From contig NZ_JAJIRO010000002.1 in NCBI RefSeq assembly GCF_025717535.1, positions 62,001 through 126,000 of the forward strand: a stretch of 64,000 nucleotides of DNA, read 5' to 3'. A program made the position numbers and the translations under genes. This document shows, piece after piece, positions 11,964-16,693 of the stretch; the stretch's first letter is position 1; each line of letters starts with the position of its first letter. The notes under the pieces were generated by a model that made no database searches, was not told the origin of the DNA, and worked only from the letters and a program-made list of their open reading frames with translations. The stretch comes from Paucibacter sp. Y2R2-4. GTDB lineage: Bacteria > Pseudomonadota > Gammaproteobacteria > Burkholderiales > Burkholderiaceae_C.

Positions 11964-11995
11964 AAAAAAAAAGGCCGAGCGCTGCGCACGGCCTT
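11964..11995 (-). terminator. Intrinsic terminator or attenuator between rplT and pheS
   Basis: On the minus strand, a stem AAGGCCG/CGGCCTT (11971-11995) is followed by nine T residues, a strong intrinsic terminator inside the operon just before pheS. A second hairpin, GAGCCAC-loop-GTGGCTC at 12042-12059, lies directly after the rplT stop. No phenylalanine-rich leader peptide (pheM-like) is visible between them, so how read-through into pheST is set is unclear. Confidence 0.75.
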
Positions 11996-12066: not shown

Positions 12067-12423
12067 TTAAGCGAGAGCGGCCTTGACCTTGGCGAAGATG
12101 CTGGCAAAACCAGCAGGATCGTGAACAGCCAGATCAGCCAGGACCTTGCGGTCGATGTCGATCTCAGCCTTCTTCAGGCCAGCCACAAACTTGCTGTAGG
12201 TCAGACCCAGGCCACGGCTTGCTGCGTTGATACGAGCAATCCACAGGGCACGGAAGACACGCTTCTTGGCACGACGGTCACGGTAGGCGTATTGGCCTGC
12301 CTTCATCACTGCCTGTTTGGCAATGCGGAAGACATTCTTACGACGACCACGGAAGCCCTTGGCTAGTGCCAGAACCTTTTTGTGACGAGCACGTGCGGTA
12401 ACACCACGTTTAACGCGAGGCAT
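12067..12423 (-). CDS. rplT: 50S ribosomal protein L20
   Basis: Ribosomal protein L20, 118 residues, with the basic N-terminal tail ([27 protein letters not shown]) and conserved globular domain. It acts early in 50S assembly and in other bacteria represses its own operon by binding the rpmI leader mRNA. It lies 23 nt downstream of rpmI. Confidence 0.98.
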
Positions 12424-12446: not shown

Positions 12447-12650
12447 TCAGAGGCCAGCGCCGGGCAACATTTGAGCCATGTGGCCCATGTTGGTCTCGTG
12501 CACAGCGGCAGAACCACGCAGGTGGCGCTTGTTCTTGGTGGACTTCTTCGTGAGGATGTGGCGCTTGAACGCCTGTCCGCGCTTGACCGTACCACCCGGA
12601 CGAACGCGGAAGCGCTTCTTGGCGCTGCTCTTGGTCTTCATTTTGGGCAT
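12447..12650 (-). CDS. rpmI: 50S ribosomal protein L35
   Basis: Ribosomal protein L35, 67 residues, starting [20 protein letters not shown], a near-canonical family N-terminus. It lies between infC and rplT as usual. A stable hairpin at 12728-12755 is in its 141-nt leader. Confidence 0.98.
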
Positions 12651-12791: not shown

Positions 12792-13337
12792 TTAACGCTT
12801 CTTCGGCGCCAGCACCATGATCATTTGCCGGCCTTCCAGCTTGGGCATGTTTTCCACCACGGCCACATCGGACAACTCGTCGCGGATACGCTCCAGCAAA
12901 CGCATGCCGATGTCTTGGTGGGTAATTTCACGGCCGCGATAACGCAGCGTGACCTTACCCTTATCACCGTCTTCAGCGATGAAGCGACGCAGATTGCGCA
13001 TCTTGATCTGGTAGTCGCCTTCGTCCGTACCCGGGCGGAACTTGACTTCCTTGATCTCGATGACCTTCTGCTTGGACTTGGCCTCGGCTGCGCGCTTTTG
13101 CTCGATGTATTTGAACTTGCCGTAGTCCATCAAACGGCACACCGGAGGTGTCGCCGTGGCGGAGATTTCGACAACGTCCACATCCAACTCACCCGCCATG
13201 CGGAGTGCTTCGTGGATGCTCACAATACCGAGCGGCTCATTTTCCGGGCCGTTCAAACGGACTTCGGGAGCCATGATTTCGCGGTTCAGCCGGTGCTTGC
13301 GCTCCGGGATCGCTCGACGATCAGCAAAAGTAGCGAT
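12792..13337 (-). CDS. infC: Translation initiation factor IF-3, AUC start codon
   Basis: IF-3 of 181 residues that prevents premature joining of ribosomal subunits and checks start codons. The first ATG (13274) would give MAPEVRLNG and lose the conserved N-terminus. Reading upstream in frame gives [20 protein letters not shown], the normal start of the family, beginning at ATC (13337-13335) 7 nt after an AAAGG ribosome-binding site. IF-3 genes classically use a rare AUU/AUC/AUA start so that IF-3 represses its own translation, and this sequence fits. Both IF-3 domains are complete, ending VLAPKKR. It lies 71 nt after thrS. Confidence 0.95.
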
Positions 13338-13408: not shown

Positions 13409-15328
13409 TCAGACCTTGTCGGCAATGTCTTTGGAGAGCTTCGCAATGAAGTCTTCCAGAGCCATCACACCCAGATCCTGGTTGCCACGGGCGCGCACCG
13501 CAACGGCTCCATTTGCCTTCTCCTTGTCGCCAACGACGAGGATGAACGGAACCTTTTGCAAAGAATGCTCGCGGATTTTATACGTGATCTTCTCGTTGCG
13601 CAAATCGGCCTGGACCCTAAGCCCTTGTTTTTGCAGAACTTTCACGATTTCCGCGACGTAATCGGCCTGCGCGTCGGTGATATTGGCCACCATCACCTGG
13701 GTCGGCGCCAGCCAAACTGGCAGCGCACCTGCGTGCTGTTCGATCAAGATACCGATGAAACGCTCCAAGCTGCCGACGATGGCGCGATGCAACATCACCG
13801 GGGTCTTGCGCTGGCCGTCTTCATCGACAAACTCGGCATCCAGGCGATGCGGCATATTCGAATCAATCTGAATCGTGCCGCATTGCCACTGACGGCCCAG
13901 CGCGTCCTTCAGAGCGTACTCAATCTTCGGCGCATAGAACGCACCCTCGCCGTGAGCGATTTCGAACTCACAGCCTGAGCGACGCAGCGACTCCATCAGC
14001 ACCTGTTCGGTGCGATCCCAATACTCATCGGTGCCGATGCGCGCTTCGGGGCGCGTCGCTACTTTGTAGACGATGTCGGTAAAGCCAAAATCGGCATAGA
14101 CCTTCTTCAGCAAAGTCGTGAAGTTGGCGCACTCTTCCAAGATCTGGTCTTCGGTACAGAAGATGTGGCCGTCGTCCTGCGTGAAGCCGCGCACCCGCAT
14201 GATGCCGTGCAGACCCCCTGTCGGCTCATTGCGGTGACATTGGCCAAACTCACCAAAACGCAGCGGCAGATCGCGATAGCTCTTGATGCCGTGCTTGAAG
14301 ATCAGGATGTGACCCGGGCAGTTCATCGGCTTCAAAGCGTAGTCGCGCTTCTCCGACTCGGTGATGAACATATTGTCCCGGTACTTGTCCCAATGACCGG
14401 ACTTCTCCCACAAGCCTTTGTCCAAGATTTGCGGGCCCTTGACCTCCTGGTAGCCGTTGTCACGATAGACCCGGCGCATGTACTGCTCGACTTCTTGCCA
14501 GACTGTCCAGCCCTTGGGGTGCCAGAACACGGTGCCAGGCGAGTGCTCGTCGATATGGAACAGGTCGAGCTCACGCCCCAACTTGCGGTGGTCGCGCTTC
14601 TCCGCCTCTTCCAACATCAAGAGGTATTTCTGCAGATCATCCTTGGTCGCCCAGGCGGTGCCGTAAATACGCTGCAACTGCTCGTTACGGTGGTCACCGC
14701 GCCAGTAGGCGCCGGCCACCTTCATCAGCTTGAAGTGCTTGAGCTTGCCGGTGGAGGGCACGTGCGGGCCGCGGCACAGATCGGTGAACTTGCCTTCGGC
14801 ATACAGCGACACATCCTGATCAGCCGGGATGCTCTCGATGATCTCGGCCTTGTAGGCCTCGCCGATGCTCTTGAAGTAAGCGACGGCCTCGTCGCGCGGC
14901 AGCACGCTGCGGGTGACCTTCTCATCCTTCTTGGCCAGCTCTGTCATCTTTGATTCGATGGCGGCCAAGTCTTCCGGCGTGAAAGGGCGCTTGTAGCTGA
15001 AGTCGTAATAAAAACCGTGCTCGATGACGGGGCCGATGGTGACCTGCGCCTCGGGGAACAACTCCTTCACCGCATAGGCCAGCAAGTGAGCGGTTGAGTG
15101 GCGAATCACTTCCAGACCGTCGGCATCCTTGTCGGTAATGATGGCCAGCTGCGTATCAGACTCCATCAAGTAGCTGGTATCCACAACCCGAGCGGCATCA
15201 CCACTGCCCACACGGCCCGCCAAGGCGGCCTTGGCCAAACCCGCACCAATCGAAGCGGCGACGTCGGCCACGGTGACAGCTTGCGGGAATTCGCGTTTGG
15301 AACCGTCAGGCAATTGAATTGAGATCAT
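13409..15328 (-). CDS. thrS: Threonyl-tRNA synthetase
   Basis: Class II synthetase of 639 residues, a normal length. In order: TGS domain (residues 1-61), editing domain with [16 protein letters not shown] and the SAD motif region, catalytic core with the zinc-ligand segment [13 protein letters not shown], and the C-terminal anticodon-binding domain ([11 protein letters not shown]...). It starts at the ATG at 15328 after GGAGTGCCTC. It is the first gene of the translation operon and follows a leader with a Thr-rich peptide, an antiterminator and a terminator (15385-15530). Confidence 0.98.
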
Positions 15329-15384
15329 GAGGCACTCCGAGTTTCGGCAGGTCTAACGAATTGAAATGGGGGCCGAGCAAGGGC

Positions 15385-15418
15385 AAAAAAAAACGCGGCT
15401 GGTTGCCGCGCTTTTTTT
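15385..15418 (-). terminator. Attenuator terminator in the thrS leader
   Basis: On the minus strand: A7, G, then CGCGGC-AACCA-GCCGCG and T9, a textbook intrinsic terminator (stem 15394-15410, U-tract 15385-15393). It ends 57 nt before the thrS ATG. Its 5' arm (15405-15414 on the + strand) is exactly complementary over 10 bp to the antiterminator arm at 15471-15480. Confidence 0.9.
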
Positions 15419-15470
15419 GGAAACTACCCCGTTGACGAGGCAGCTCAGACTGGAAAGATAGGGCGTGACG

Positions 15471-15480
15471 AAAGCGCGGC
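15471..15480 (-). promoter_or_regulatory. Antiterminator arm of the thrS attenuator
   Basis: The RNA segment GCCGCGCUUU, 5 nt after the leader-peptide stop codon, can pair perfectly over 10 bp with AAAGCGCGGC, the 5' arm of the terminator. A ribosome at the leader stop codon would cover this arm and allow termination. A ribosome stalled on the Thr codons 22-36 nt upstream would leave it free. Confidence 0.8.
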
Positions 15481-15483
15481 CGA

Positions 15484-15499
15484 CTTCACCCCTGTGAAG
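15484..15499 (-). promoter_or_regulatory. Small hairpin overlapping the end of the thrS leader peptide
   Basis: CTTCAC-AGGG-GTGAAG, 6 bp with a 4-nt loop, covers the last codons and stop of the leader peptide. It is in the position of the 1:2 pause hairpin of amino-acid attenuators. Confidence 0.55.
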
Positions 15500-15530
15500 G
15501 TGTGGTCGTAGTTCGCGGTGTCATAACCAT
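15486..15530 (-). CDS. Threonine-rich leader peptide of thrS
   Basis: A 14-codon reading frame, MVMTPRTTTTPSQG, begins at the ATG at 15530 after GAGAAAGG with a 4-nt spacer. Five of 14 residues are Thr, four of them consecutive, and those four codons (ACU ACG ACC ACA) are the four different Thr codons. The next structures are an antiterminator arm, a terminator and then thrS, so the peptide is read as the sensor of Thr-tRNA charging. The product itself probably has no function. The longer frame through the same region (15445-15672) is not protein-like. Confidence 0.85.
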   Translation of the reverse strand: MVMTPRTTTTPSQG

Positions 15531-15567
15531 GATGCCTTTCTCGCCCTTGTTCGTTGCTGATGGGCCA

Positions 15568-15573
15568 ATTGTA
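15568..15573 (-). promoter_or_regulatory. Candidate -10 element for the thrS operon
   Basis: TACAAT on the minus strand matches the sigma-70 -10 consensus at five of six bases and lies 38 nt upstream of the leader-peptide ATG. No good -35 is seen at 16-18 bp spacing, so the promoter assignment is tentative. Confidence 0.4.
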
Positions 15574-15595
15574 GCCATGCTTGAAGACAAGCGGT

Positions 15596-16693
15596 TTACA
15601 AAGGCAAGGCCTGAATCGATGACTGCTCGCAGGCCTTAGCGAATTCATCACGCAGGCGCTGGCTTTCGGCAATGGCGCGCAACCACGCCGTCGCGCGCGC
15701 GCTCACGTCATCACCGTAATGCTGAAAGTCAGCACGATCGGGCAGCTTACCCAGGGGCAAGGTCTTGATCCAGGCCTGACTCGGCGCCAGCAGCACCACA
15801 TTGTCGAGAAAGGCGCTGGCGCGATGGCGCGACTTCAAGGCCTTATCCAACCAACCCGGAATGACTTGCTGCTGGAAATGCGGGTACAGCACCAGCCCCT
15901 CGCCCGCCATGGCCGCATAGTCCAGATGCAGGTGATAGTCGGTGATGCCGCCGTCCCAGTAGGCACCGCGCGGTGCGCCTGGGATGTCGTGCACCGCTTG
16001 CAGCCAAAAAGGAATCGAGCAACTGGCCAGCAAGGCCGGCTGAAAGTTTTGTGGCGTCAACTCGACCCGATGACTGCGGTAGTCATGCAACGGCACGGCC
16101 AAAGCTTCGCCCGGTGCGGAGAACACCACCCGGTCCAGCCAACGCCCAAGAGACCGTCGATGCAGGAGATTCGCCATGAAAGCGCCGGTGTAACCCAAAG
16201 GCGTGCGCCAGCGCCCTTCCCGCCCAAGCAAATGCTGGCCCCGTGAAGTGAACAGATGCAAGCGGTAACGCGGGTGGCTGAGGGCTATCTCCTCCCGTCC
16301 ACCAAAGAATTCATCGAGCTTCGCCGCAAAGCCCCGAGTCACGTCTTTGGCCTTGGGCATCTTGCCGGGCAGGCTGTCGTAACGCTGATGCACATAGTCA
16401 TGCGCCAAGCGCTCAAAGTTGGCTTGAGCATCCGCGTCTGAGCGGCCCAAACAAGCGGTGGCCATGCGCCAGGCACCGATCGAAGCGCCCAGCAGATGCA
16501 CCTGTTGCGAACTCCGTGCCAACCAGTCGCCAAAGAGATACCGATCCAAAGGCCCGAGGATCAATCCCTTGGGACCACCGGCGGCGGCCGGCACCACGCG
16601 GATGTCTTCGGGGCGCAGACCCCGCTCCGCCAGACGCGCCAGCGCGCGGGGGCCGGCGTAGATTTGCAGCGCTTGTTGACCGCTAGAGCTCAT
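15596..16693 (-). CDS. Patatin-like phospholipase family protein
   Basis: Serine acyl hydrolase of about 365 residues with the patatin fold. The nucleophile elbow GASIG places the catalytic Ser at about residue 71, and the Asp of the dyad is in DGGITD. The oxyanion region AAAGGPKGL lies at about residues 36-44. No signal peptide is seen. The start is the ATG at 16693, 13 nt after the stop of the TonB-dependent receptor; an in-frame GTG at 16705 is possible. Substrate unknown. The gene end at 15596 abuts the thrS promoter region. Confidence 0.87.
   Translation of the reverse strand: MSSSGQQALQIYAGPRALARLAERGLRPEDIRVVPAAAGGPKGLILGPLDRYLFGDWLARSSQQVHLLGASIGAWRMATACLGRSDADAQANFERLAHDYVHQRYDSLPGKMPKAKDVTRGFAAKLDEFFGGREEIALSHPRYRLHLFTSRGQHLLGREGRWRTPLGYTGAFMANLLHRRSLGRWLDRVVFSAPGEALAVPLHDYRSHRVELTPQNFQPALLASCSIPFWLQAVHDIPGAPRGAYWDGGITDYHLHLDYAAMAGEGLVLYPHFQQQVIPGWLDKALKSRHRASAFLDNVVLLAPSQAWIKTLPLGKLPDRADFQHYGDDVSARATAWLRAIAESQRLRDEFAKACEQSSIQALPL

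Follow-up and report, generated by a model that had tools for sequence, protein, structure and literature searches.

The thrS locus and its upstream region

The window is a 64,000-nucleotide stretch of a Paucibacter contig that carries thrS, encoding threonine--tRNA ligase, on its minus strand (13409..15328; TIGR00418, 732.8 bits). Downstream and in the same orientation lie infC, encoding IF-3 (TIGR00168), an ORF at 12447-12650 (minus strand) that is presumably rpmI, judging by its position, rplT (12067-12423, minus strand; TIGR01032), and pheS, whose identity was confirmed. From its first in-frame ATG, infC spans 12792..13274 on the minus strand. However, the first 12 positions of the IF-3 profile are missing from the match, and therefore a non-AUG start is likely; the probable true start is an in-frame ATC (13335-13337, minus strand, starting at 13337) that lies 21 codons 5' of that ATG and is preceded by GAAAGG. 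The infC gene of E. coli also has a non-AUG start. Between rplT and pheS, a terminator-like hairpin (AAGGCCG...CGGCCTT, 11964-11995, minus strand) is followed by nine T, and inspection by eye showed no Phe leader ORF at this hairpin before pheS.

The 267-nt gap between thrS and the adjacent gene, whose product is a patatin-like protein, houses in order a Shine-Dalgarno (SD)-like site, a leader ORF, a hairpin at the leader stop codon, a segment that we call segment 2, and a terminator, all read on the minus strand. The SD-like site GAGAAAGG, read from the sequence at 15542-15535 (GAGAAAGGC over 15534..15542), precedes the 14-codon ORF MVMTPRTTTTPSQG (15530-15486), which ends in TGA at 15488-15486. 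Codons 7 to 10 of this ORF are ACT ACG ACC ACA, all four synonyms for threonine, and codon 4 (ACA) is an additional Thr codon. The stop codon is spanned by the hairpin CTTCAC-AGGG-GTGAAG (15499-15484), likewise read from the sequence. Segment 2, the 5' strand of the antiterminator (GCCGCGCTTT, 15480-15471), is a perfect complement over 10 pairs of segment 3, the 5' arm of the terminator (AAAGCGCGGC, 15414-15405), and this pairing has z = -5.4 against segment shuffles. The terminator stem GCGCGGC-AACCA-GCCGCG(T), whose 3' arm GCCGCG (15394..15399) is segment 4, runs into a T9 tract (15393-15385) located 56 nt upstream of the thrS ATG at 15328. The leader region as a whole was more stable than 200 of 200 shuffles (z = -4.24). 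An earlier note on this DNA had described a leader-peptide attenuator here, and its coordinates, leader ORF, stop-codon hairpin, 10-bp antiterminator pairing, and T9 terminator were all confirmed on the minus strand, with a terminator-to-thrS distance of 56 nt.

A consensus terminator scan reported the hairpin on the plus strand only, and its yield of 1 terminator-like site compares with 0.8 expected in shuffles. As A and T runs flank the hairpin on both sides, the terminator may be bidirectional. No sigma-70-like promoter was detected by a consensus scan of window positions 15300-15800.

A conserved leader start among Burkholderiales

We compared 239 thrS upstream regions, 237 of them unique after removal of duplicates (L192 and L217), consisting of the window, 78 of 80 named loci, an order sample of 100, and a family sample of 60 (58 unique). 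Two named loci (L079 and L082) were left out, as their thrS match sits at a contig start and has no upstream region. The order sample was drawn from 216 matching Burkholderiales genomes among the matches listed, the family sample from 109 matching genomes, and an outgroup sample of 20 from 57 genomes; all are biased toward better thrS matches. Because the upstream regions come from related organisms, the counts below are not independent. For structural comparisons we hand-picked two alignments, A1 (18 rows, window-like) and A2 (32 rows, Comamonadaceae-like), a choice biased toward regular structure.

The motif ATGACACCGCG[AG]AC[TG] was found 120 to 196 nt upstream of thrS in 49 of the 78 named loci as well as in the window. 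By a fixed rule, leaders were recognized in the window, in 52/78 named loci, in 55/58 family loci, and in 46/100 loci of the order sample, where they are spread over 18 of 31 families. By the same rule no leader was recognized in 83 of 237 loci, or in 78 after five leaders seen by eye were reassigned. A Polaromonas leader with its start codon changed from ATG to ATA (L020; GGCTATAACACCGCGAATT) looks like a leader in decay. Nine other loci (L023, L026, L032, L038, L039, L042, L050, L061, and L064) are without the leader core, yet have a hairpin and T run shortly 3' of a TAAAAT-like box, and the gene upstream of thrS in several of them is one that we take to be ilvC.

The part of the leader that recurs is its start. 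The conserved start codon is the second ATG of the window ORF (15524-15522, minus strand), which is ATG in 130 of 131 leaders, whereas the codon at the first ATG of MVMTPRTTTTPSQG is variable in relatives. It lies within the conserved core GGTTATGACACCGCGAACT (15510..15528, minus strand), which encodes MTPRT, and this core is shared across families in which the residues that follow are unrelated (for example, MTPRTCFFLR, MTPRTFPSLI, MTPRTWSFHSGL, and MTPRTSRTQGVFS). The hexamer CGAACT occurs in 130 of 237 upstream regions, compared to 18.3 expected (standard deviation of 4.5 over 20 shuffles). Among 134 CGAACT matches, 126 have a short ATG-initiated ORF open in phase 0 and 4 have one in phase 1; phase 2 is open at none, and 8 matches have no open phase. 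Where exactly one phase is open, it is phase 0 in 122 of 122. Within the window's own genome, an exact match to the core motif was found at thrS only, and there were four copies with 3 mismatches against 2 control matches. Across 369 genomes of the class, the 14-mer ATGACACCGCGAAC matched in 12. The window's own genome and two others from its family account for three of these, and the other nine compare with five for a reversed control.

Codon choice in the core is close to fixed. Among 131 core leaders, chosen by a peptide pattern that sets Pro and Thr while leaving their codons free, ACA is codon 2 in 127, CCG is codon 3 in all 131, CGA is codon 4 in 116, and ACT is codon 5 in 119; GGTT stands directly 5' of the start in 121. 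In the ThrS coding sequences of 47 of the same loci, used as a control, 0 of 51 invariant Thr, Pro, and Arg positions have one codon in 95% of sequences, and mean top-codon shares are 0.62 (Thr), 0.60 (Pro), and 0.69 (Arg). None of the 34 Thr and Arg positions in this control has ACA, ACT, or CGA as its most frequent codon, while CCG is an ordinary choice for Pro. The majority of the SD-like columns are likewise invariant or almost so in A1 and A2. On these counts, the leader start MTPRT is conserved as nucleotides, synonymous positions included. The first codons are probably frozen at this level because the same bases serve as the start site, the sensor codons, and strand 1 of a pairing with segment 2 (the 1:2 pairing).

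Beyond the core, threonine is the residue that stands out. In the six codons after [RLP]T, Thr accounts for 301 of 916 residues, with Ser the runner-up at 93, and 133 of 154 leaders have at least one further Thr there. The number of Thr per leader ranges from 1 to 9 (median of 4), with one or two in 28 of 154. In ORFs that start at GTTATG (n = 132), residue 5 is Thr in 126, and the remaining six are five unrelated ORFs and MNILRTATLM, in which the Thr comes one codon later; at residue 4, 117 of the same ORFs have Arg, 7 have Leu, 4 have Pro, and 4 have other residues. Deep lineages have otherwise unrelated peptides built around a shared Arg-Thr, such as MSFRTTTTGTLNLG, MFRTCTTTWC, MLFRTRTRTF, MNTNTTRTTTTRHT, and a GTG-started peptide with WRTTTTRYSHAS. 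Three deep leaders hold a single Thr, and there is no further Thr in, for example, MIIRTCVAVLKS and MFRTCSLALYC. That Thr is the constant leader residue fits threonine sensing. The alignment of related thrS upstream regions proposed in the earlier note supports its attenuator, in that leader, terminator, and antiterminator segment all recur and Thr is enriched even in unrelated peptides. Its Thr run did not hold up as a conserved feature: the run of four synonyms is local to the window, and the constant part is MTPRT.

This last point could favor arrest by the nascent chain, in which the MTPRT peptide itself stalls the ribosome on some signal other than a shortage of charged tRNA-Thr, since MTPRT varies less than the Thr run and further Thr are few in some leaders. 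We consider such arrest improbable. It would not account for bases being conserved at synonymous positions rather than residues alone, the deep-lineage peptides have in common only Arg-Thr or Thr codons, and position 4 tolerates Leu or Pro. Moreover, a five-residue core counted from the start would barely enter the exit tunnel.

Conservation at the nucleotide level, including the GGTT before the start codon, could instead point to an RNA operator whose constant bases bind ThrRS, another protein, or a small RNA, with the ORF incidental. E. coli ThrRS does control its own expression, which is the only thrS-relevant content in the available text of PMC2965389. An operator of this kind is nonetheless quite unlikely here, as nearly all matches to the motif fall in phase with a short ORF and no Rfam family reaches its gathering score on the leader. 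The eight Rfam matches at the leader with E values up to 10 include no amino-acid-leader family. One Burkholderia sRNA, NcS25 (RF02869 ncS025), was considered as the leader transcript and rejected, as it scores 28.3 bits against a gathering score of 46 and its genomic place differs, ncS25 being located between BCAL3007 and BCAL3008 according to the available text of PMC10117139.

The outgroup also argues against an operator of the known type. The sequence TC[AG]CCACTG, which we take to resemble or belong to the E. coli ThrRS operator, precedes thrS in 10 of 20 gammaproteobacterial outgroups and in 0 of 237 Burkholderiales regions. Conversely, CGAACT was absent from all 20 gammaproteobacterial thrS regions outside Burkholderiales. 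Burkholderiales therefore seem to have exchanged one thrS control for another. A rule for the anticodon-like hairpin of the ThrRS operator found 1 of 20 gammaproteobacterial and 1 of 237 Burkholderiales regions and is too strict to inform this comparison.

Terminator, alternative pairings, and ribosome position

A terminator follows in 128 of the 131 core leaders, with its stem a median of 42 nt 3' of the stop codon. Nevertheless, of the 78 loci in which no leader was found, 50 retain a terminator, and tRNA-Val lies upstream in many relatives, but an ordinary terminator of an upstream gene or tRNA behind a chance ORF is very unlikely given that the start, frame, codons, and SD-like site are conserved, that Thr is enriched, and that 155 of the 159 leader-bearing loci keep the terminator. 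The tRNA-Val gene (GAC) was found 5' of thrS in 20 of 20 loci checked, which were selected after a by-eye sighting (L093, L098, L101, L106, L107, L110, L111, L118, L121, L123, L139, L140, L142, L145-L148, L155, L160, and L169). The unrelated peptides of the deep lineages, too, often follow such a gene. As thrS stands behind this tRNA gene, the leader terminator there may also end the tRNA transcript.

Judged by complementarity, segment 2 has two alternative partners, leader bases (1:2) and the terminator 5' arm (2:3), and the pairing of segments 3 and 4 is the intrinsic terminator. In the 32 leaders of A2, the 1:2 pairing joins CGCGAAC to GUUCGCG 3' of the stop codon, with 95.1% of cells paired and no changes on both sides; three pairs of its outer helix depart by mismatches only. 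Across loci, the core was paired downstream at 0.53 against 0.36 when shuffled, with the greater value in 108 of 128. The 2:3 pairing in A2, UUCGCGC with the terminator arm, is kept in 99.5% of 211 cells, compared to 19 to 62% in slid registers, and 6 of 500 letter shuffles equal it. In the window and its 17 relatives (A1), the pairing of GCCGCG with CGCGGC is kept in 97.2% of 108 cells against 18 to 53% in slid registers. The segment 2 core GCCGCG is largely constant in these 18 sequences, and 237 of 500 letter shuffles reach the observed values, i.e., there is no covariation beyond shuffles in the window's clade. The stop-codon hairpin, by comparison, has both-side changes at 5 of 6 pairs among the 32 A2 leaders, with 82.8% of cells paired.

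Covariation in both alternative pairings, to which the earlier note had looked for support, was thus found in few cases: two 2:3 pairs in A2 and one in A1 have both-side changes, and the 1:2 outer helix has none. RNAalifold covariation terms were -0.4 and -0.15. Covariation is thin because the arms hardly vary. Duplex energies, calculated for 70 of 73 leaders with the three lacking a terminator omitted, were modest for single leaders and gave a mean z of -0.97 for 1:2 (median P of 0.175, with 16% at P ≤ 0.05) and of -0.89 for 2:3 (median P of 0.26, with 21% at P ≤ 0.05). One three-way compensatory case was seen in L063, in which a C-to-T change in segment 2 is coupled to a change from G-C to A-T in both terminator arms.

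To model the position of the ribosome, each leader was folded up to the terminator 5' arm with the bases beneath the ribosome forced to be single stranded. Over 128 leaders, antiterminator pairing had a mean of 0.59 for a ribosome stalled with the fifth MTPRT codon in its A site, of 0.19 for one that had reached the stop codon, and of 0.28 when no ribosome was placed; the corresponding values for the window were 0.97, 0.01, and 0.24. The difference between stall and stop was 0.40, compared to 0.13 when the intervening region was shuffled (four shuffles per locus), and exceeded the shuffles in 87 of 128 loci. None of 40 shuffles reached the switch value of the window. The averages barely shift when the footprint is altered by 3 nt, although in the window a longer footprint makes codon 7 (0.82) a better stall site than codon 5 (0.35). 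The masking logic of the earlier note, in which a ribosome at the stop codon hides the antiterminator and a stall on the Thr codons exposes it, is reproduced by this model.

Proposed mechanism and comparison with known systems

The locus combines a short ORF with an SD-like site, Thr enrichment, a terminator before thrS, and, in the folding model, an antiterminator that depends on ribosome position. We propose, with a probability of roughly 80%, that thrS and the genes that follow it are controlled here by a threonine-sensing, ribosome-mediated transcription attenuator, in which the Thr-rich leader and terminator probably turn thrS on during threonine shortage. When charged tRNA-Thr is ample, the ribosome would run to the stop codon and mask segment 2, and the terminator would halt transcription. 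When charged tRNA-Thr is scarce, the ribosome would stall on the start-proximal Thr codons and block pairing of the leader strand with segment 2, which would then take the terminator arm and let RNA polymerase continue into thrS. In the absence of translation, the 1:2 pairing would favor termination. As infC, the rpmI-like ORF, and rplT lie 3' of thrS in a putative operon, a lack of threonine could in addition govern how much IF3 and ribosomal protein is supplied.

We give even odds to a broader scenario, that of an ancient thrS attenuator over much of Burkholderiales that occupies the place of the gammaproteobacterial thrS operator. Its sensor would in places have been cut to one or two Thr codons beside CGA, and its first five codons would be base-locked because the same 15 nt are the start site, the sensor, and the strand that needs masking. 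Such frozen codons offer a clear case in which to test how coding and RNA constraints bear on shared bases. The attenuator would also represent a third solution to thrS control, present across many Burkholderiales, and would show how readily an essential synthetase swaps its sensor.

In E. coli, thrS is the textbook case of translational repression, in which ThrRS binds a tRNA-like RNA in the 5' leader and blocks translation. The proposed attenuator is similar in exerting thrS feedback through a 5' leader but differs in that the TC[AG]CCACTG motif is missing from the Burkholderiales regions. The T-box RNAs on thrS of Firmicutes also act by transcription antitermination, in response to uncharged tRNA-Thr, but have no translated leader. 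T-boxes of any kind are counted in 2 of 125 proteobacterial genomes, in each case before leuA, in the available text of PMC2494555. A T-box covariance model had no match at the leader.

No description of a thrS leader peptide in a proteobacterium was found in the literature searched, which covers few subscription papers and some sources in part. The available portions of PMC2330054 and PMC3997798 mention thrS in other contexts, and that of PMC5688073 describes 82 short transcripts from 5'UTRs of B. cenocepacia and refers to other synthetase genes by their locus tags. A threonine-dependent leader peptide 5' of thrS has already been proposed in Streptomyces lividans, thrL (MKRVRPFLETTPGFVPAR; PMC8079986, available text), and the Burkholderiales leader is similar in this respect. 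However, S. lividans is an actinobacterium, and thrL belongs to a leaderless transcript, has two Thr codons and, per its authors, no clear terminator, and encodes an unrelated peptide. The proposed switch itself is of a classical type, for which we found no earlier report before thrS in Burkholderiales within these sources.

Leader-peptide attenuators are well known for amino acid operons and pheST in E. coli. The thrS leader of Burkholderiales shares with them a short ORF with cognate codons, the 1:2, 2:3, and 3:4 pairings, and a terminator before the structural gene; unlike them, it precedes thrS and has a start-proximal core frozen at the nucleotide level.
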